A DNA stretch of 56,687 bases from an uncultured Anaerovibrio sp. (GTDB lineage: Bacteria > Bacillota > Negativicutes > Selenomonadales > Selenomonadaceae), in the NCBI RefSeq assembly GCF_947302755.1, contig NZ_CAMYWM010000003.1:1-56687 (forward strand). The letters run 5' to 3'. Made by a program: the position numbers and the translations under genes. The notes under the pieces are model-generated. The model was not told the DNA's origin, did no database searches, and worked only from the letters and a program-made list of their open reading frames with translations. Below, piece after piece: positions 1,266-15,221 of the stretch. Within the stretch, counting starts at the first letter, position 1. Each line of letters begins with the position of its first letter.

Positions 1266-1940
1266 ATGACAGTAATGACTTTGGATTTTTGGACAGCCTT
1301 ATTTTCTATTGTGATTTTGGATTTGGTTTTGGCCGGTGACAATGCGGTGGTCATTGCCATGGCGGCCCATCGCCTGCCCCATGATCTGAAAAAGAAGGCT
1401 ATTCTGGTGGGTACCGCCGGAGCCGTGATTATACGGATTATTATGACTTTGTTGGCAGTATATCTGTTATCCATCCCATATCTTCAGGCCTTGGGCGGCT
1501 TGCTGTTATTGCCTATTGCTATTAAACTGCTGGCCCCAGCCAAGGAAGGTCATGTGGAGGAGGCCGATAATTTTGCCGGAGCTGTCAAGACTATTATTGT
1601 AGCCGATGCGGCCATGGGCATTGACAATGTGCTGGCTGTAGCCGGAGCAGCTCACGGAAGCTTCCTGCTGGTGGTCATTGGCCTGATAATAAGTGTACCT
1701 ATTGTGGTGGGCAGCAGCCAGATTATCGGTAAGCTGCTGGATAATTGGCCGGTGCTGATTTACCTTGGGGCGGCAATTTTAGGCTGGACCGGTGGCAGCA
1801 TGGTGGTTCACGATGCCAGTATTGGTCCTGTGATTGAAAGCTCCTTGGGGGCTATGGCACCAAAGCTTATTCCGGCCCTGCTGGCCTTGGGCGTATGTGC
1901 CATTGGCTACAGTAAAAAGAAGCAGGCTCAGCCTGAATAA
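1266..1940 (+). CDS. TerC/YjbE-family integral membrane protein (putative metal exporter)
   Basis: A 224-residue membrane protein with about seven hydrophobic helices. Two acidic motifs inside membrane segments, LAGDNAVV near residue 22 and MGIDNVL near residue 118, are the hallmark of the TerC/YjbE/YkoY family and probably form a metal site across two inverted halves. Some Bacillus relatives (YceF, YkoY) take part in Mn2+ export; older annotations say tellurium resistance. A short KKK tail follows the last helix. It starts three bases after the ligase-like gene and lies next to a cation ATPase, which supports a role in metal homeostasis. The substrate is an inference. Confidence 0.8.
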   Translation: MTVMTLDFWTALFSIVILDLVLAGDNAVVIAMAAHRLPHDLKKKAILVGTAGAVIIRIIMTLLAVYLLSIPYLQALGGLLLLPIAIKLLAPAKEGHVEEADNFAGAVKTIIVADAAMGIDNVLAVAGAAHGSFLLVVIGLIISVPIVVGSSQIIGKLLDNWPVLIYLGAAILGWTGGSMVVHDASIGPVIESSLGAMAPKLIPALLALGVCAIGYSKKKQAQPE

Positions 1941-4702: not shown

Positions 4703-4731
4703 TTGACATTTATTGTATTACGATTTAGAAT
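4703..4731 (+). promoter_or_regulatory. Sigma-A promoter of the cobalamin-riboswitch/mutAB operon
   Basis: TTGACA at 4703-4708, a 17-base spacer and TAGAAT at 4726-4731. A start of transcription near 4738 places the riboswitch at the very 5' end of the message. Confidence 0.8.
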
Positions 4732-4752
4732 GAAATTAATTAAATAGAGTGA

Positions 4753-4974
4753 GGACAGGTGTCTGTCGATCAGACTTAATAGAGAATCCGGTATAAGCCG
4801 GAGCGGTCCCGCCACTGTAAGGGCGAGCAAGATACATGTATGTCACTGGGTCACGGGTAATGTGATCTGGGAAGGCGTATCAAGCGTTGAACCCGAGCCA
4901 GGAGAACTGCCTGTTTTATCATTTCCGTTAGCGAATATTTCAGAGAGCTGCCAGCAACCCTCTGAATGGTAAGA
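4753..4974 (+). promoter_or_regulatory. Cobalamin (adenosylcobalamin-class) riboswitch
   Basis: The conserved core is easy to read: ACAGGTG at 4755, GCGGTCCCGCCACTGTAA at 4803-4820, CACTG followed by CTGGGAAGGCG, and the B12 box GAGCCAGGAGAACTGCCTG at 4895-4913, whose CCTG closes the first stem with CAGG near 4756. A hairpin with loop GGGTAAT (about 4852-4866) could make a kissing contact with a downstream hairpin, CAGAG (4941-4945) with CTCTG (4970-4974), whose loop carries CAACC; this L5-L13 contact is typical of the large AdoCbl class and is inferred by eye. It lies between a good promoter and two terminators ahead of mutA, so it should gate transcription of mutA-mutB-meaB and the MsrA-like gene. 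Whether ligand turns expression off (usual) or on cannot be told. Confidence 0.93.
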
Positions 4975-5063
4975 TGCTTATACCTGCGAGCGATGGGTAG
5001 GGGATGGAACTATGATGGATGGAATATGGCGAGTTTAGGCGATTCCGTTATCTGGTATCAATC

Positions 5064-5097
5064 TCCGACTTATTTTTTTTAAGTCGGATTTTTATTT
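5064..5097 (+). terminator. First intrinsic terminator of the riboswitch expression platform
   Basis: TCCGACTT (5064-5071) pairs with AAGTCGGA (5081-5088) and is followed by TTTTTATTT. It lies about 90 bases after the putative kissing-loop hairpin of the cobalamin aptamer and before the mutA ribosome site, so it is the likely attenuator. Confidence 0.8.
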
Positions 5098-5124
5098 GCC
5101 GGATGCATATTTCAACCATCAAAT

Positions 5125-5160
5125 CCATCTGCACACTCTAGGCAGATGGTTTTTTATTTT
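5125..5160 (+). terminator. Second tandem terminator before mutA
   Basis: CCATCTG (5125-5131) pairs with CAGATGG (5143-5149) and runs into TTTTTTATTTT. It is a second terminator-like hairpin only 28 bases after the first, still upstream of the AAGGAGG of mutA. Either it tightens the riboswitch gate or it is the actual switch helix. Confidence 0.7.
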
Positions 5161-5182
5161 TCGTGTGAAGGAGGTAAATTCA

Positions 5183-7384
5183 ATGAATGAGGAGAAAAGC
5201 GGTCAGGCCCAGGAAGAGCTGGATCTTCAGGCCATTCTGAAAAAGGCAGAGCAGCAGACTACATTTCCTGATGTGCCTTTGGATGAATTTACGCCGCCTA
5301 CTTATGATGAATGGAAGGAAGCATGTATTGCCCTGCTGAAAGGTGCTCCATTTGAAAAGAAAATGTATACCAAAACCTATGAGGGTATAACATTTTCACC
5401 AATGTATTTCCGTAAAGATACGGACCCTATCTTGCCGAAAAAATCCTTCCCAGGTATGGATGATTTTATGCGGGGGGCCAAGCCAAATGGCTATATTGAA
5501 GCTCCATGGGGTATAGCTCAGGCCTGTGATGAAACAATGCCAAAGGAGAATAACGATCTTCTGAAGCATGAAATAGATCGGGGTTCAACGATTTACAATA
5601 TTACCCTTGATAAGGCCAGCCTTGTCTGTGGGGATGCACGGGAGGCTGACAAGCCAGGTGATGAAGGCTGCAGTATTACCACCCTGCAGGATGTCCATGA
5701 TTTGTTGGATGGGCTGAAGCTGGACAAGTATCCTGTGTACATTTATGCCGGTGCTTCGGCAGTTCCGATGCTGTCCATGGTGGCTGCCAATTTAAAATCC
5801 AGTGGACAGTCAACTGATATTTTGAAGGGTATTATCGGTGCAAATCCAATCGGTGAATTGGTGGCAACCGGCCACAATACCCAATCCCTGGCCAAGCTCT
5901 ATGATGAAGCCTATGAAGCAGCCCGGTGGGCCATCAAAAATGCACCGGGGCTGAAGACCTGCTTTGTAAAGAGTGATGTATTCAGCAATGGCGGCGCCAA
6001 TGATATTCAGGAGATTGCCTACAGTCTGGCTGTGGCTGCCGATTATATCAGGGCTATGCTGGAGCGCGGTCTTACGGTGGAGGAAGCTGCCGGTCAGGTG
6101 GCCTTTGAATTCTCCATGGGGGCCAATTTCTTCATGCAGATTGCCAAGCTCAGAGCAGTCCGTCCTATTTGGTCCCAAATCGTTGAGGCCTTTGGCGGCA
6201 GTGCCGATGTTCAGAAAATGTACATTCACGCCCGTCCGGCCCGGTTCTTTAAGACTGTATACGATCCATATGTAAATATGCTCCGCAATACCTCGGAAAT
6301 TTTCTCCGGTGTTGTCGGGGGACTGGATTCCTTTGAAAATCCACCCTTTGATGAGGTTATCAGAAAGGGCGACGAATTCTCCCGTCGTATTGCCCGGAAT
6401 GTCCAGATAATGCTTCAGGAGGAATTTGGCCTGTTACAGCCAATTGACCCTGCCGGCGGCTCCTGGGCCGTTGAAACCCTTACCAAGCAGGTGAAGGAAA
6501 AAATCTGGGATGAGTTCAAGGTTATTGAAACCAAGGGCGGTATTGTGGAGGCCCTGAAGGAGGGCTATCCTCAGGAGCAGATTGGTCTTATTCTGGCCGA
6601 GCGGTTCAAGAAGCTGGAGCTTCGCCGTGACCGTATTGTTGGCTCCAACATGTATCCGAACATGACAGAGGTCCGCCTTGATCCAAGACCGGAGGATTTT
6701 GGGGAGAACAAGCAGCAGCGCACAGCTGATATTACGGCATATCTTGATGATATTGACAATAAATTCTGTGATGAGGCCCTGAACAAAATCAAGGAAACCA
6801 AGGGGAGCATGGAGGCGGTTATCGAAGCTGCCAAGGCTGGTGCTACTATTGCTCAGCTGCGAGAAGCCCTGACCTGCCCGAAGTGTGCTGAAAATGCTGA
6901 GAGGGTTGAAAAAATAGACAGACACCGTTGGAGTGAGCGTTATGAGGCACTGCGCATGATTACTGAGGCCTACAAGGAAGAGAAGGATGATAATGTGCGG
7001 ATTTTCCTGGCCAATATGGGTCCAATCCCGCAGCATAAGGCCAGAGCCGATTTCTCCACCGGCTTCCTCCAGGTAGGTGCCTTTGAGGTATTGGGCAACA
7101 ACGGCTTCCCCACTGAGGAGGAGGCTGCGGCTGCTGCCAAGGAATCCGGTGCTGATGCAGTAGTTATCTGCTCCACCGATGCTACCTATCCTGATATTGT
7201 ACCTAAGCTGGCACCAATGCTTCATGAGGCATTGCCTAATGCAACGGTGTTCCTGGCCGGTGAGGCTCCGAAGGATCTCAAGGAAACCTACGATAATGCC
7301 GGTATTGATAAATATATTTCCGTTAAGGCAAATTGTTATGAAATCCTGCAGGCACTGCAGAAGAAGAAAGGGATGATTGAGTGA
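5183..7384 (+). CDS. mutA: Methylmalonyl-CoA mutase small (beta) subunit
   Basis: 733-residue non-catalytic partner of the heterodimeric adenosylcobalamin-dependent mutase that interconverts succinyl-CoA and methylmalonyl-CoA. The TIM-barrel half is recognisable from the [17 protein letters not shown] block and the [18 protein letters not shown] helix, and the last 130 or so residues have the B12-domain fold but lack the DxHxxG cobalamin-ligand motif, as expected for the small subunit (Propionibacterium MutA type). The ATG at 5183 has AAGGAGG nine bases upstream; the longer reading frame from 5096 would start inside the terminators. It overlaps the mutB start by one base (TGATG). Expression should depend on the riboswitch at 4753. 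Confidence 0.93.
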
Positions 7385-9585
7385 TGGCTTCTTTTAAAAA
7401 TCCTGATTTTACCAGCATGAACCTGAAAGAAGCTCCAGAGAGAAGCCCTGAAGAATGGCGTAAGCTGTTTGAGGACGCTGCCGGTGCCAATTTCGACAAG
7501 CTGACTGGCAAGACAATGGAGCATATTCCTATAAAACCGCTGTATAACTATGATGAATATGAGCATATGAATCATCTGGATTTTGCCTCAGGTATTCCAC
7601 CATGCCTTCGTGGCCCATATTCCACCATGTATGTATTCCGTCCTTGGACGGTACGTCAGTATGCAGGCTTCTCCACAGCCGAGGAATCCAACGCTTTCTA
7701 CAGAAGAAACCTGGCTGCTGGTCAGAAGGGTCTGTCCATTGCCTTCGACCTGCCTACCCATCGCGGCTACGACTCTGATAATCCACGGGTTTTGGGTGAT
7801 GTTGGTAAGGCTGGCGTTGCTATTGACTCCATTTTGGATATGCGTATTCTGTTCAGCGGTATTCCCCTTGACCAGATGTCCGTATCCATGACCATGAACG
7901 GTGCTGTACTGCCGATTTTGGCCTTCTACATCCTCTCCGGTGAGGAGCAGGGGGTAGATAAGAAGGTTATGGCCGGTACCATTCAGAATGATATTTTGAA
8001 GGAATTCATGGTGCGTAATACCTATATTTACCCACCTGAAATGTCCATGCGTATTATCGGTGATATATTCGAGTACACCACCAAGTACATGCCTAAGTTC
8101 AACAGTATTTCCATTTCCGGCTACCACATGCAGGAGGCCGGTGCCACGGCTGATATTGAGCTGGGCTATACTTTGGCTGATGGTCTTGAGTACATCCGTA
8201 CCGGTGTGGCTGCCGGCCTGCCGGTAGATGCTTTTGCCAAGCGTCTGTCCTTCTTCTGGGCTATCGGTAAGAATTACTTTATGGAGGTTGCCAAGATGCG
8301 TGCGGCTCGTGTGCTGTGGGCGAAGATTGTTAAGTCCTTTGGGGCTACCAATGATAAGTCCATGGCCCTGAGAACCCACAGCCAGACCTCCGGTTGGTCA
8401 CTGACAGCCCAGGATCCATTTAACAATGTATCCCGTACCCTGATGGAGGCCATGGGTGCTGCTTTGGGACATACCCAGTCCCTCCATACAAATGCGCTGG
8501 ATGAGGCCATTGCCCTGCCAACTGACTTCTCCGCCCGCATTGCCCGTAATACCCAGCTTTATATTCAGGATGAGACCAGCGTATGTAAGATTATTGACCC
8601 TTGGGGCGGTTCCTACTATGTTGAGGCTCTCACCAATGAAATTATCCGCCGTGCCTGGGCTCATATCCAGGAGGTTGAGGCACTGGGCGGCATGGCCAAG
8701 GCTATTAACAGCGGTCTGCCTAAGATGCGTATTGAGGAGGCTGCAGCACGTCGTCAGGCTCAGATTGACTCCGGTAATGAATCCATCGTAGGCCTGAACC
8801 GGTTCCGCCTGGAGAAGGAGGATCCGCTGGAGATCCTGGCCATTGATAATACTGCCGTTCGTCAGGCTCAGATTGAACGCCTCGAAAAGCTCCGTGCCGA
8901 GCGTAACGATGATGATGTTCGTCGTTGTCTGGAGGGCATTACCAAGGCTGCTGAGTCCCGTGACAATGGTAACCTCCTTGAAGCAGCCGTTGATGCAGCT
9001 CGTGCCCATGCTTCCTTGGGTGAAATTTCCGATGCTGTTGAGAAGGTTTCCGGTCGCTTCCAGGCCGTTATCCATACCATTTCCGGTGTTTATTCCTCCG
9101 AGTTCACTGACAAGAGTGCATTGGAGAAGGCTCGGGAAATGGCTGATGAATTTGAAAATCTTACTGGTCGCCGTCCAAGAATTTTCGTGGCCAAGATGGG
9201 CCAGGATGGTCATGACAGAGGCCAGAAGGTTATAGCTTCTTCCTTCGCCGATATGGGCTGGGATGTTGATGTAGGTCCTCTTTTCCAAACCCCGGAAGAG
9301 ACTGCACAGGATGCCGTCGATAATGATGTTCACATGGTTGGGTTCAGTTCCTTGGCCGCTGGTCATAATACTCTCCTTCCACAGCTGGTACAGGAGCTGA
9401 AAAAGCTTGGCCGTGAGGATATCATGGTATGTATCGGCGGCGTTATCCCAGTACAGGATTATGATTTCCTGTATGAAAGCGGTGCAGTGGCCATATTTGC
9501 CCCTGGAACCAATATTCCTGAGGCAGGCATCAAGCTGCTGACCCTTTTGATTGAGCGTGCCAAGGAAGACTTGGCAGAGGAGTAA
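7384..9585 (+). CDS. mutB: Methylmalonyl-CoA mutase large (alpha) subunit, B12-binding
   Basis: 733-residue catalytic subunit. It carries the substrate barrel followed by the C-terminal cobalamin domain with GQDGHDRG (His is the lower cobalt ligand), FSSLAAGH and CIGGVIP. Residues that set substrate choice fit methylmalonyl-CoA: Tyr in VRQYAGFST (Tyr89 of the Propionibacterium enzyme) and Arg in [11 protein letters not shown] (Arg207), which are Phe and Gln in isobutyryl-CoA mutases. The catalytic His is in SGYHMQEAG. Similarity to P. freudenreichii MutB is very close along the whole length. The ATG at 7384 overlaps the mutA stop, giving translational coupling. It forms the MutAB dimer and is serviced by the MeaB encoded next. 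Confidence 0.96.
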
Positions 9586-9597
9586 TGGTGACGAGTT

Positions 9598-10791
9598 ATG
9601 GCAAAATATACCACTTCAAAACCAAGCTGGGTTCCTGATGAACCCAATGAAAAATTCGCCTGCAGTGTAATGGGCGGCATTGAGGGGATAAAGGACACCA
9701 CCGTAGGCAACATTAATCCTAATTTATTGAACGGTAAGATGAAGCCAAGACGGCGTCTGGTCTTAAGTGAGGATGATTATGTCAACGGGGTACTTAAGGG
9801 TGACCGCATGACATTATCCCGGGCTATAACTCTCATTGAAAGTAACAATTCCAAGCATTTTGCCAAGGCACAGCGGGTATTGCAAAGGCTTTTACCACAT
9901 ACTGGAAAAGCACTTAGAATAGGTATTACCGGTGTGCCGGGAGCTGGCAAGAGTACCATTATCGAAGCCTTCGGTAATATGCTTTGTGATGCTGGCCATA
10001 GGGTGGCCGTCTTGTCCGTGGACCCGACGAGCTCTGTTACCAAGGGCTCCATATTGGGCGACAAAACGAGAATGGGAACCCTTTCCCGCCGTCAGGAGGC
10101 CTTTATAAGGCCTTCTCCTGCGGGAGGTACCCTGGGCGGTGTAGCCAGAAAAAGCCGGGAAACCATGCTTATGTGCGAGGCAGCAGGGTATGATATTATC
10201 TTAATTGAAACCGTTGGCGTAGGCCAATCGGAAACCACTGTACGGTCCATGGTGGATTTCTTTATGCTCGTTGTGCTTACCGGTGCCGGTGATGACCTGC
10301 AGGGTATCAAGAAGGGCATAATGGAGCTGGCTGATGCCATAGTTATCAATAAGGCCGATGGGGATAACCTGCTGAAGGCCAAGGTGGCCCGAGGTGAATA
10401 CGAGCGGATGATTGAATACATCCGTCCGGCCACTGACGGCTGGCCAACCCACGCCTATCTGTGCTCCGCCTATACAAAATACGGTCTGCCGGAGCTCTGG
10501 AAGGTAATTCAGGCCTTTAAGGAAATGACCACGGAAAGTGGCGTGTTTAATAAAAGGCGTAACCGTCAGCTTTTGGAATGGATGTACAGCATGATTGATG
10601 AACACCTTCACAGCCTGTTTTTTGATGATCCGGTGATAACCGGCAGAATGCCGGAGGTGAAGGAGGCTGTACTCAACGGTGTAATTTCACCTACCCAGGC
10701 GGTAAAGGAGCTGATAAATATGTTCGATGTGGACATGGCAGCCCGCCGTCAGGTGGATATATTCCATCCGGAAGCCGAGGTGAAGTCCTGA
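9598..10791 (+). CDS. meaB: Methylmalonyl-CoA mutase-associated GTPase MeaB (ArgK family), N-terminally extended
   Basis: 397-residue G3E-family GTPase that chaperones loading of adenosylcobalamin into the mutase and protects it from inactivation. Walker A is GVPGAGKST near residue 110, followed by VDPTSS, the ETVGVGQSE switch and NKAD specificity motif. A MeaB normally begins close to the GDRMTLSRAITLIES helix; here about 65 residues come before it (WVPDEPNEKF, then GIEGIKDTTVG), which I do not recognise. The start is twelve bases after mutB. It is a close paralogue of the second MeaB at 15295, which lacks this extension, so each mutase seems to have its own chaperone. Confidence 0.92.
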   Translation: MAKYTTSKPSWVPDEPNEKFACSVMGGIEGIKDTTVGNINPNLLNGKMKPRRRLVLSEDDYVNGVLKGDRMTLSRAITLIESNNSKHFAKAQRVLQRLLPHTGKALRIGITGVPGAGKSTIIEAFGNMLCDAGHRVAVLSVDPTSSVTKGSILGDKTRMGTLSRRQEAFIRPSPAGGTLGGVARKSRETMLMCEAAGYDIILIETVGVGQSETTVRSMVDFFMLVVLTGAGDDLQGIKKGIMELADAIVINKADGDNLLKAKVARGEYERMIEYIRPATDGWPTHAYLCSAYTKYGLPELWKVIQAFKEMTTESGVFNKRRNRQLLEWMYSMIDEHLHSLFFDDPVITGRMPEVKEAVLNGVISPTQAVKELINMFDVDMAARRQVDIFHPEAEVKS

Positions 10792-10792
10792 A

Positions 10793-11359
10793 ATGTATAC
10801 CAAGAAAATTTATTTCTCCGGCGGCAGCTTTCATGAGCTGCAGGCGGTGTTTGAAGAGCTGTCCGGCGTAGTGAAGGTAAGGACCGGCTACATTAATCCC
10901 GACAAGTCCCCGGTAGATTATGAAGGGGCTGTGGGAGGACAGGTTAAGACCGTAATGGGTATCTGCGTTGAATACAATCCAAAGAAAATTGATGTTTCCA
11001 GCCTGCTTGATATCTTGTTTTCTGTTACTGATCCCTACAGTGAAAATCGTCAGGGTGATTTAATTGGTCCGATGTATACGTGTGGAATATACTATAATAC
11101 TCCAGAAGATTTACCCCAAATACAGCTTCATTTAAATTTTATGGCCAATAGAACCAACCCACCGGCGGTGACGGGAAGCAATCTGACCATTAACGATCCG
11201 GTAAGTGATCAGAAGCAGAGGCGCCGGCTTCATGTCAGGTCGGAAGAATTAATGCTCTTTGTGGAGGCTGAGGATGCACATCAGGAATATTTAAAAAAGC
11301 ATCCTGATGCAAGGACGCAAATTGATATCAAAAAGTTCAAGGAGTATATCAATTCCTGA
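10793..11359 (+). CDS. MsrA-like protein lacking the catalytic cysteine (probable pseudoenzyme)
   Basis: 188 residues that follow the methionine-S-sulfoxide reductase A fold from end to end: GGSF where MsrA has GGCFW, then GVVKVRTGYI, PVDYEGAV, VEYNPKKIDVSSLLDILF, DPYSENRQGD, IYYNT and the C-terminal AHQEYLKKHP. The nucleophilic Cys is Ser (residue 11), the next aromatic is His, and the Glu of the GHAE motif is also missing, while the NRQGD aspartate and a Tyr remain. By family knowledge it should not reduce methionine sulfoxide. It begins one base after the meaB stop and shares the riboswitch operon, suggesting a role tied to MutAB, perhaps binding, but this is only inference. A terminator follows. 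Confidence 0.8.
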   Translation: MYTKKIYFSGGSFHELQAVFEELSGVVKVRTGYINPDKSPVDYEGAVGGQVKTVMGICVEYNPKKIDVSSLLDILFSVTDPYSENRQGDLIGPMYTCGIYYNTPEDLPQIQLHLNFMANRTNPPAVTGSNLTINDPVSDQKQRRRLHVRSEELMLFVEAEDAHQEYLKKHPDARTQIDIKKFKEYINS

Positions 11360-13167: not shown

Positions 13168-14814
13168 ATGAGCAATGAAAAGATTCAGGCTGGCTTAGAT
13201 AAATATAATGCCAGCGTAGAAAAAGCTACTTCAAAGTTCCCAGAGCGTCCTAACCTGCCAGAGCAGCGTCTGTACACTCCACTTGATATCAAGGACACCG
13301 ACTATGCTGATGAAATTGGTTTCCCTGGTATGTATCCTTATACCCGTGGCGTACAGCCTACCATGTATCGTGGCCGTTTCTGGACTATGCGTATGTATGC
13401 TGGCTTCTCTACTGCGGCTGAATCCAATAAGCGTTATCGCTATCTGATCGAGTCCGGTGCTACTGGTCTCTCCTGTGCATTTGACCTTCCTACCCAGATT
13501 GGTTATGACTCTGATGATCCTATTTCTGAGGGTGAGGTTGGTAAGGTAGGCGTTGCCATCGATTCCCTGGCTGATATGGAGGTTCTCTTCGACCAGATCG
13601 ACCTTGGCAAGGTTTCTACCTCTATGACTATCAACGCTCCTGCATCTGTACTGCTTTCCATGTACATTGCAGTTGCTGAGAAGCAGGGTGTTCCTGCTGA
13701 CCAGCTGAAGGGTACTATTCAGAATGATATTCTGAAGGAGTATGCAGCACGTGGTACTTATATTTTCCCTCCACGTCCTTCCATGCGTTTGATCACTAAC
13801 ATCTTTGAGTATTGCTCCAAGAATGTTCCAAAATGGAATACCATTTCCATTTCCGGTTATCATATTCGTGAGGCAGGTTCCACTGCTTCCCAGGAAATCG
13901 CATTTACTATTGCAGATGGTATTGCATACTGCGAGGCTGCCATTAAGGCCGGTCTCCACATCGATGATTTTGCAGGCCGTCTGTCCTTCTTCTGGAATGC
14001 TCATAACAACGTACTTGAGGAAGTTGCCAAGTTCCGTGCTTCCCGTCGCGTATGGGCCAAGGTTATGAAGGAGCGTTTCCACGCTGAGAAGCCTAAATCC
14101 ATGATGCTTCGCGTACATACTCAGACTGCCGGTTCCATGCTGACTGCTCAGCAGCCTAACAACAACATTATCCGTGTTGCTCTCCAGACTGCTGCTGCTG
14201 TTATGGGTGGCACCCAGTCCCTCCACACTAACTCCCGTGATGAGGCTTTGGCACTTCCTACCGAGGAGTCTGTAATGATCGCTCTCCGTACTCAGCAGAT
14301 TGTTGCTTATGAGTCCGGTCTGGCTGACGTAATCGATCCATTGGCTGGTTCCTACTATGTAGAGGCTCTTACCAATAAGATTGAGAAGGAAGCTTGGGAA
14401 TACATCAAGAAGATTGATGAAATCGGCGGTGCTGTTGCAGCTATCGAGAAGGGCTATATCCAGAAGGAAATCCAGGATTCCGCTTACAAGTGGCAGATGG
14501 ATGTTGAGTCTGGTGCAAAGACCATCGTTGGTGTTAACAAGTTCCAGATTGAAGAGGAGCCACCTAAGGGTCTGCTGAAGGTAGATGCTTCCGTAGGTGT
14601 TGCACAGTGCAAGCGTCTGGCTGATATGAAGGCTAAGCGTGACAATGATGCTGTTAAGTCTGCTCTTGCTGATCTGAAGAAGGCTTGTCAGGATGAAAAT
14701 GAAAACCTCATGCCACATATTCTGAATGCAGTACGCACCTATGCAACTCTCGGTGAGATTTGCGGCGTAATGCGTGAAGTATTTGGTGAGTATGAAGCTC
14801 ATGTAAATCTTTAA
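13168..14814 (+). CDS. Methylmalonyl-CoA mutase, stand-alone catalytic subunit (split type)
   Basis: 548-residue substrate-barrel subunit without a cobalamin domain; the latter is the next gene. It is of the archaeal/Veillonella split type: [45 protein letters not shown] and [11 protein letters not shown]. Tyr before AGFST and Arg in [10 protein letters not shown] match the methylmalonyl-CoA-specific residues (Tyr89/Arg207) and argue against isobutyryl- or 2-hydroxyisobutyryl-CoA mutase, which share the split layout. AGGAGG precedes the ATG. It is only distantly related to MutB at 7384, so the two mutases are not a recent duplication. Codon bias is very strong, so this is probably the main catabolic enzyme. 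Confidence 0.93.
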
Positions 14815-14831
14815 TTGGAGGTAAATGAGAA

Positions 14832-15221
14832 ATGGCTAAAGTTAGAGTATTAGTAGCAAAACCAGGCCTTGATGGCCATGACCGTGGTGCAAAGGTAGTT
14901 GCCAGAGCACTTCGTGATGCTGGCTTTGAGGTTATCTATACAGGTCTCCGTCAGACTCCAGAGCAGATTGCTGAAGCAGCTTTGCAGGAGGACGTTAATG
15001 TTGTGGCTATGTCCATCCTTTCCGGTGCACATCCACACCTCTTCCCTAAGGTTGTTAACCTGCTCCGCGAGAAGGGCATGAATGATGTTCTTATCATTGG
15101 CGGCGGTGTTATTCCTGAGACTGATATCCCAGCTCTGAAGGAAGCAGGCATTGCCGAGGTATTTACTCCAGGTACCCCAACCGGCGATATTGTTGAATTC
15201 ATTAAGGCTAACGTTAAATAA
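14832..15221 (+). CDS. Methylmalonyl-CoA mutase, separate cobalamin-binding subunit
   Basis: 129-residue B12-binding domain protein, equal in length to the C-terminal domain of fused mutases. DGHDRG at about residues 14-19 supplies the cobalt-ligating His, followed by SILSGAH and IGGGVIP that line the nucleotide tail, and a final TPGTPTGDI loop. It completes the catalytic subunit encoded 17 bases upstream. GGAGG lies about 11 bases before the ATG. Confidence 0.95.

Follow-up and report, generated by a model that had tools for sequence, protein, structure and literature searches.

A cobalamin riboswitch, probably of the transcriptional OFF type, ahead of a B12-dependent methylmalonyl-CoA mutase operon in Anaerovibrio

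Analysis of a 56,687-nucleotide (nt) stretch of DNA from an uncultured Anaerovibrio sp., a rumen bacterium (contig NZ_CAMYWM010000003.1; hereafter the window) indicates that the leader of its mutA gene, which opens an operon for the B12-dependent methylmalonyl-CoA mutase MutAB, is very probably a transcriptional OFF riboswitch of the ordinary type for cobalamin (corrinoid). The aptamer, the promoter, two terminators (T1 and T2), the covariation of a paired element (P13) throughout the class Negativicutes and an antiterminator that overlaps T1 were all computed here. Since the P13 element that the ligand would hold contains the 5′ arm of the antiterminator, ligand would mean that mutAB is OFF. 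By the simple rule, B12 riboswitches stand guard over uptake, synthesis or isozymes that need no B12; a switch that is widespread in the class and lowers one mutase when its cofactor is plentiful would be a misfit with that rule. The elements of the leader are as follows.

4703–4731, + strand: sigma-70-type promoter, TTGACA-17-TAGAAT, with 11 of 12 consensus matches
4740–4928, + strand: cobalamin riboswitch aptamer RF00174, 101.8 bits, E-value 2.2e-24
4788–4801, + strand: P5 hairpin with loop L5 (UAUAAG, 4792–4797), read from the sequence; six Watson-Crick pairs possible with 4977–4982
4897–4911, + strand: B12 box, from sequence and RF00174 alignment
4920–4926, + strand: 5′ strand of the outer P13 stem, CAUUUCC, partner 5000–5006, from covariation over leaders without the loop insert
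4938–4966, + strand: insert in P13 on its L13 side, forming a hairpin and variable among relatives
4977–4982, + strand: L13 strand CUUAUA, putative kissing partner of L5 by complementarity, between outer stem and inner hairpin
4983–4997, + strand: inner P13 hairpin CCUG-CGAGCGA-UGGG, pairs kept across leaders
5000–5006, + strand: GGGGAUG, serving both the outer P13 stem (3′ strand) and the antiterminator (5′ arm), from pairing and folding analyses
5000–5066, + strand: antiterminator hairpin by predicted folding, basal pairs 5000–5005 with 5061–5066 (GGGGAU:AUCUCC)
5064–5096, + strand: intrinsic terminator T1, stem 5064–5088 (−12.3 kcal/mol), then a U-run
5125–5160, + strand: intrinsic terminator T2, stem 5125–5149 (−12.7 kcal/mol), then a U-run; equivalents in relatives
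5168–5174, + strand: Shine-Dalgarno sequence AAGGAGG, read from the sequence

The aptamer match covers the complete model (1–189 of 189), stands far above the cut-off of 31.5 bits and is the sole Rfam match over cut-off in the window; downstream of it, the Rfam scan returned nothing over cut-off, a trpB motif at 5054–5161 scoring 26.1 against 59. The order of promoter, full cobalamin aptamer, tandem terminators and mutA, as given in a preliminary description made from the sequence, was thus borne out by the promoter match, the RF00174 score and the two stems with their U-runs. Each of the 14 relatives scanned also has a promoter-like site (10–11 of 12 matches, 17-nt spacing) 157–181 nt ahead of its B12 box. 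A separate promoter immediately upstream of mutA was rejected, as a + strand scan of 4732–5183 returned no promoter-like site, and hence none between 5097 and 5183, where the preliminary description had considered one.

In the proposed mechanism, a leader emerging without ligand would fold the antiterminator (5000–5066), RNA polymerase would pass T1, and mutA-mutB-meaB and the final gene of the unit, here termed msrA′, would be made. When an adenosylated corrinoid is bound, the L5–L13 contact (4792–4797 with 4977–4982) would hold the P13 element, composed of the outer stem (4920–4926:5000–5006) and the inner hairpin (4983–4997), and would thereby tie up GGGGAU, the 5′ arm of the antiterminator. 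With this strand sequestered, T1 would form in full and transcription would stop, while T2 would provide a second stop, perhaps as a fail-safe.

The pairing of P13 was assessed by a swap test, in which native strand partners were compared with 1000 swapped partner sets. The set comprised 95 riboswitches, namely that of the window, 47 mutA leaders of its family, the eight others of its genome and 39 class hits, two of which do not adjoin mutA (L175, on the minus strand, and L186, at 907); 94 leaders were parsed, 79 of them unique, and ten of these riboswitches do not lie beside mutA. For the outer stem, 0 of 1000 swaps were as good as the native partners in the 51 leaders without the loop insert, and 6 of 1000 were as good in all 79 leaders as well as in the 42 mutA leaders without the insert (paralogues and the extra hits L175 and L186 excluded). 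The outer pairs change jointly between lineages, reading CAUGUC/GAUAUG in one and AAUCACC/GGGGAUU in others. The four pairs of the inner hairpin, CCYR-CGANNGA-YRGG, recur, with several pair types, in every one of the 79 unique leaders, and the hairpin beats all 1000 shuffles, a result favoured by the choice of the anchor through its own pairing. For the six possible pairs between L5 and L13, 11 of 1000 swaps were as good over 75 leaders, and the kissing contact is, on this test and on complementarity, a putative one. The kissing-loop hairpin of the preliminary description, presumably 4938–4966, was rejected as such, being a variable insert on the L13 side that has no counterpart in 51 of the 79 unique leaders; the strand complementary to L5 is 4977–4982. 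In two mutA leaders (L030 and L042), a second CCTGCGAGCGATGAT motif lies 3′ of the first P13, with no second aptamer seen ahead of it.

The genome holds nine RF00174 matches, that of the window and eight others of the same aptamer family. Five of these eight carry the P13 motif CCUGCGAGCGAUGGG within 2 mismatches, and all eight belong to the set without the loop insert, unlike the window leader. Where named, the genes that they precede are the usual uptake and cobalt-chelatase targets: Peripla_BP_2 (twice), a TonB plug, an ATP-binding cassette (ABC) permease and CbiK. Chelatases of the cbiK type and uptake genes are the expected OFF targets of cobalamin riboswitches, and the same P13 motif follows the RF00174 aptamers before the CbiK, periplasmic binding protein and ABC permease genes of this genome.

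Predicted folding gave an antiterminator base of the same kind in 7 of 7 leaders folded. In the window leader, the antiterminator reached a mean pair probability of 0.93 with the transcript ending at 5070, and once T1 was complete the probabilities were 0.87 for T1 and 0.20 for the antiterminator. Before the 3′ arm of T1 emerges, the antiterminator state lies at −45.5 kcal/mol and the P13 state at −34.0 kcal/mol; with T1 included, the energies are −46.5 kcal/mol with P13 enforced and −45.8 kcal/mol with the antiterminator enforced. As the antiterminator state is ahead before the 3′ arm of T1 is available, read-through of T1 would be expected by default, and because the two states are nearly equal afterwards, the ligand could decide between them, a modest stabilisation of P13 tipping the outcome to termination. 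The predicted probability of T1 is 0.99 with P13 enforced versus 0.64 with the antiterminator enforced. When the pairing of T1 5′ arms with the P13 3′ strand was ranked against its own shuffles, 17 of 81 leaders fell in the best 5% and 37 in the best 20%. The 90-base stretch described earlier as unusual is mostly the antiterminator hairpin (5000–5066), plus P13 elements shared throughout the class.

Nor is the doubled terminator the oddity that it had been taken for, since 31 of the 94 parsed leaders (two of the 31 being of transporter type) have tandem terminators spaced by less than 130 nt. A terminator pattern scan reported T1 and missed T2, whose loop of 9 exceeds the limit of 8, and its two terminator-like sites in 2 kb show no excess over the shuffle mean of 1.8. 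The calls of T1 and T2 are therefore based on their position, their conservation and the riboswitch-less leaders, which are free of terminators: none of 32 has a terminator between its best promoter and the mutA start, whereas one or more lie within 450 nt in 42 of the 47 leaders with the riboswitch, so that the terminators go with the switch. One mutA leader (L049), with its B12 box 109 nt from the start codon, lacks a clear terminator like T1 or T2 and is perhaps translational or degenerate. The long Selenomonas leaders L043, L044 and L051 carry additional sequence that may form a long-range pairing, GAACTGAATG/CATTCAGTTC, and Rfam returned nothing over cut-off in them except cobalamin aptamers.

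A published counterpart is available in Veillonella parvula, whose mutA riboswitch is, in the available text of PMC9600662, one of 38 that repressed green fluorescent protein in Bacillus subtilis, 37 of the 38 with a predicted terminator, and answers to several corrinoids. It shares with the window leader the gene, the bacterial class and the P13–L13 type of cobalamin riboswitch. The window leader has two terminators and the L13 hairpin insert, whereas six g59 leaders (probably Veillonella) have one terminator. We infer that the leader acts in the same OFF direction in Anaerovibrio; the kissing contact and the role of T2 outlined above are inferred likewise. A metatranscriptome paper (PMC7160235) also remarks, in the part available, on a Veillonella mutase gene preceded by a cobalamin riboswitch. 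Among the papers listed in literature searches of a library with few subscription journals, no further one dealt with a Negativicutes mutA cobalamin riboswitch. A cobalamin riboswitch of Listeria is likewise tied to a catabolic pathway, that of propanediol, which, as far as the available portion of PMC11575231 goes, is expressed with cobalamin through an antisense RNA, whereas the window switch acts in cis and is predicted to be OFF.

Several observations weigh against the OFF reading of the window leader. The outer P13 swap test is not significant in the 28 insert-bearing leaders, the group of the window itself, where 830 of 1000 swaps were as good. The unconstrained fold of the window leader is without P13 (mean probability 0.00–0.02), and the free fold of 4912–5096 (−48.5 kcal/mol), which contains neither state in full, is better than either enforced state. 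The folding model takes in neither the ligand nor the kissing contact, and the missing P13 would fit a need for ligand while also marking the model as incomplete. The antiterminator and T1 share 5064–5066, three of the nine pairs of T1, so a shortened T1 persists in the antiterminated leader. T2 has a predicted probability of 1.00 with either P13 or the antiterminator enforced, and the model thus does not explain how the ON state gets past it; T2 may be either a partial, unregulated stop or handled by something outside the model. The published repression concerns the leader of a relative, read out in B. subtilis (PMC9600662, available part). In Xylanibacter ruminicola, for which the available part of PMC11575231 reports no riboswitch near mutAB, cobalamin modestly raises MutAB. 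A further observation concerns the purpose discussed below and not the direction of control: V. parvula has both mutases, and in the accessible part of PMC6759758 the heterodimer complemented Sinorhizobium meliloti and was chosen as the active form, not the heterotetramer, a choice that gives no help to the idea of the split enzyme as an active, standing mutase.

That T2 sets the expression level, with T1 minor and the bound corrinoid exerting a weak effect on a mostly constitutive attenuation, appears improbable. Such an arrangement would accord with the formation of T2 in both modelled states and with the T2-type hairpin kept in leaders without a detected T1 (e.g. L018 and L022), but the terminators track the switch in the counts given above, and, ranked against shuffles, the 5′ arms of T2 are to some degree complementary to the P13 3′ strand, with 17 of 30 in the top 20% but just 2 of 30 in the top 5%. 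The predicted probability of T2 is 0.77 in the whole leader and 0.99 without the aptamer. A relay, in which one antiterminator strand blocks T1 and then T2, is at best weakly indicated: over 30 leaders the mean probability of T2 was 0.88 with the native strand and 0.96 with a shuffled strand, and the fall came mostly from four leaders of the Anaerovibrio lipolyticus group (L010–L013) and from L009.

The preliminary description had left ON and OFF side by side, and of the two only OFF gained from the structure and from the published V. parvula leader test. An ON switch, in which the ligand-bound P13 would use the stem AUCACCG/CGAGCGAU, leaving GGGGAU free for the antiterminator so that MutAB is made only with adenosylcobalamin, is biologically plausible, as the enzyme would be made along with its cofactor, and its stem, the one antiterminator-freeing stem that could be drawn, is traceable by eye in a large number of leaders; it was nevertheless dropped as very improbable, because 979 (79 leaders), 987 (51 leaders) and 996 (the 42 mutA leaders without the insert) of 1000 swaps were as good as its native pairing, the stem is incompatible with the inner hairpin kept in every leader, repression was seen with the mutA leader of V. 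parvula (PMC9600662, in the part available), and the same P13 motif follows the aptamers of cbiK-like and uptake-type genes in the genome of the window.

The arrangement is common in the class and is a real, conserved and ordinary cobalamin riboswitch in an unusual place. In a survey of the family with a profile hidden Markov model trained on class-wide aptamers (39 hits before duplicate removal, including two, both in L175, that belong to the family of the window), an aptamer was detected at most 700 nt upstream of mutA at 47 of 80 loci. Of the 33 loci without a detected aptamer, L025 is cut by a contig end yet retains the P13 motif; the other 32 form a single clade on the MutA tree (support of 100 in the Shimodaira–Hasegawa-like approximate likelihood-ratio test, quick method), and in 27 of them a promoter with 9 or more of 12 matches lies within 260 nt. 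The covariance-model search proposed in the preliminary description, for the same arrangement before mutA in other Negativicutes, found RF00174 in the mutA direction in 37 of 40 further class leaders (39 from other families), and the three without a match all share the genus label g73. A block, AAAACTTTTCGCA, was seen shortly upstream of the Shine-Dalgarno sequence in L034, L037, L039, L056, L064 and others of the riboswitch-less clade, the pattern being present in 15 of 20 leaders scanned. A second cobalamin aptamer lies within about 0.7 kb of the mutA aptamer in L031, L044, L053, L175, L186 and L196, on the opposite strand in L175 and cut by the end of the stretch in L196.

Downstream of the leader, the window encodes the following mutase genes and their companions.

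5183–7384, + strand: mutA, methylmalonyl-CoA mutase small subunit, ATG at 5183 (TIGR00642, 376 bits, below the cut-off of 617)
7381–9585, + strand: mutB, methylmalonyl-CoA mutase large subunit (NF006944, 1250 bits, cut-off 876)
9598–10791, + strand: meaB (NF006958, 481 bits, cut-off 329)
10793–11359, + strand: final gene of the unit, encoding an MsrA-fold protein that lacks the GCFW motif (TIGR00401, 88.8 bits, cut-off 108.1)
13168–15221, + strand: second, split mutase, with a catalytic part at 13168–14814 (TIGR00641, 823 bits) and a B12-binding part at 14832–15221 (TIGR00640, 185 bits)

The preliminary description was right in recognising a B12-dependent mutase operon. The MutA of the window is 93–94% identical to that of three records named A. 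lipolyticus and 73% identical to that of a fourth so named (L022). The fourth gene of the riboswitch operon, which encodes the MsrA-fold protein, has GGSF in place of the catalytic GCFW motif. In the locus DNA analysed, its homologues occur at 40 of the 47 riboswitch loci, all 40 without GCFW, and the 32 riboswitch-less loci gave a single match, a GCFW protein elsewhere in L071; at two g73 loci, a gene that resembles it by eye sits upstream of mutA. Between the operon and a propionate cluster lie about 285 bases, in which promoter-like sites occur. The cluster comprises a succinyl-CoA:acetate CoA-transferase, the split mutase, a second meaB, an epimerase, mmdA and mmdC, and it has no riboswitch, the window holding no further RF00174 match. 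Elsewhere in the window (1266–1940), a YjbE/TerC-type gene belongs to the 'R_switched' families (TIGR03717), with no Rfam riboswitch over cut-off nearby.

In these bacteria, propionate is formed via methylmalonyl-CoA mutase, and the presence of two such enzymes bears on the purpose of the repression. Matching by coordinates linked 71 of the 128 listed MutA places to family loci. In these 71 genomes, 42 have both the switch and the split mutase, 24 have neither (all g11), four have the switch alone, none has the split mutase alone, and one is indeterminate (G120, whose leader, L025, is the one cut by the contig end); thus, 42 of the 46 scored switch-bearing genomes also have a riboswitch-free split mutase. 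In the order, the split mutase was found in 93 of 151 genomes, the best copy being 85–100% identical to that of the window, with an extra copy of 63–64% identity in two; G099, whose match falls on its mutB, was excluded from this count. Across the class, 112 of 130 genomes have a split-mutase match at E ≤ 1e-160, and a near-full-length MutA is listed for 64 of the 130.

A strict rule that the riboswitch occurs only where a second mutase exists was rejected. Four family genomes (g24 and g22; 85–93% complete) carry the switch while a split mutase was not found, and all 40 class genomes with fetched leaders have a split-mutase match, yet in three of them, from g73, the roughly 1.1 kb upstream holds no switch. 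Further, the 24 genomes with neither element sit in one clade and the no-switch group of the family is likewise a single clade, and hence amounts to one event, which also counts against a purpose tied to the two mutases. Taken with these exceptions, the counts suggest that corrinoid represses MutAB as an accessory mutase and that loss of the second mutase went along with loss of the switch. We propose, with less confidence, that MutAB is the mutase raised when corrinoids are scarce, with the split mutase, encoded among propionate genes, as the standing enzyme.

A different purpose, also compatible with an OFF switch, would be to save the cofactor for the second mutase instead of inducing MutAB at scarcity. 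The second mutase in 42 of 46 scored switch-bearing genomes speaks for this possibility, but sparing should be least needed when the cofactor is plentiful, and the four switch-bearing genomes in which no split mutase was found also argue against it, leaving it doubtful. A joint reading is rather unlikely to hold in all its parts: the OFF riboswitch would keep MutAB, with MeaB and an MsrA-fold partner lacking the cysteine, as the mutase that Negativicutes induce at scarcity, beside a standing, riboswitch-free split mutase, the tandem terminators would be read in turn by one antiterminator strand, and a Quinella-like clade would have lost the riboswitch along with the second mutase.

In its anatomy, the switch belongs to an already known kind. 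With two mutases present, the reason for repressing an enzyme that depends on the cofactor can be tested directly.

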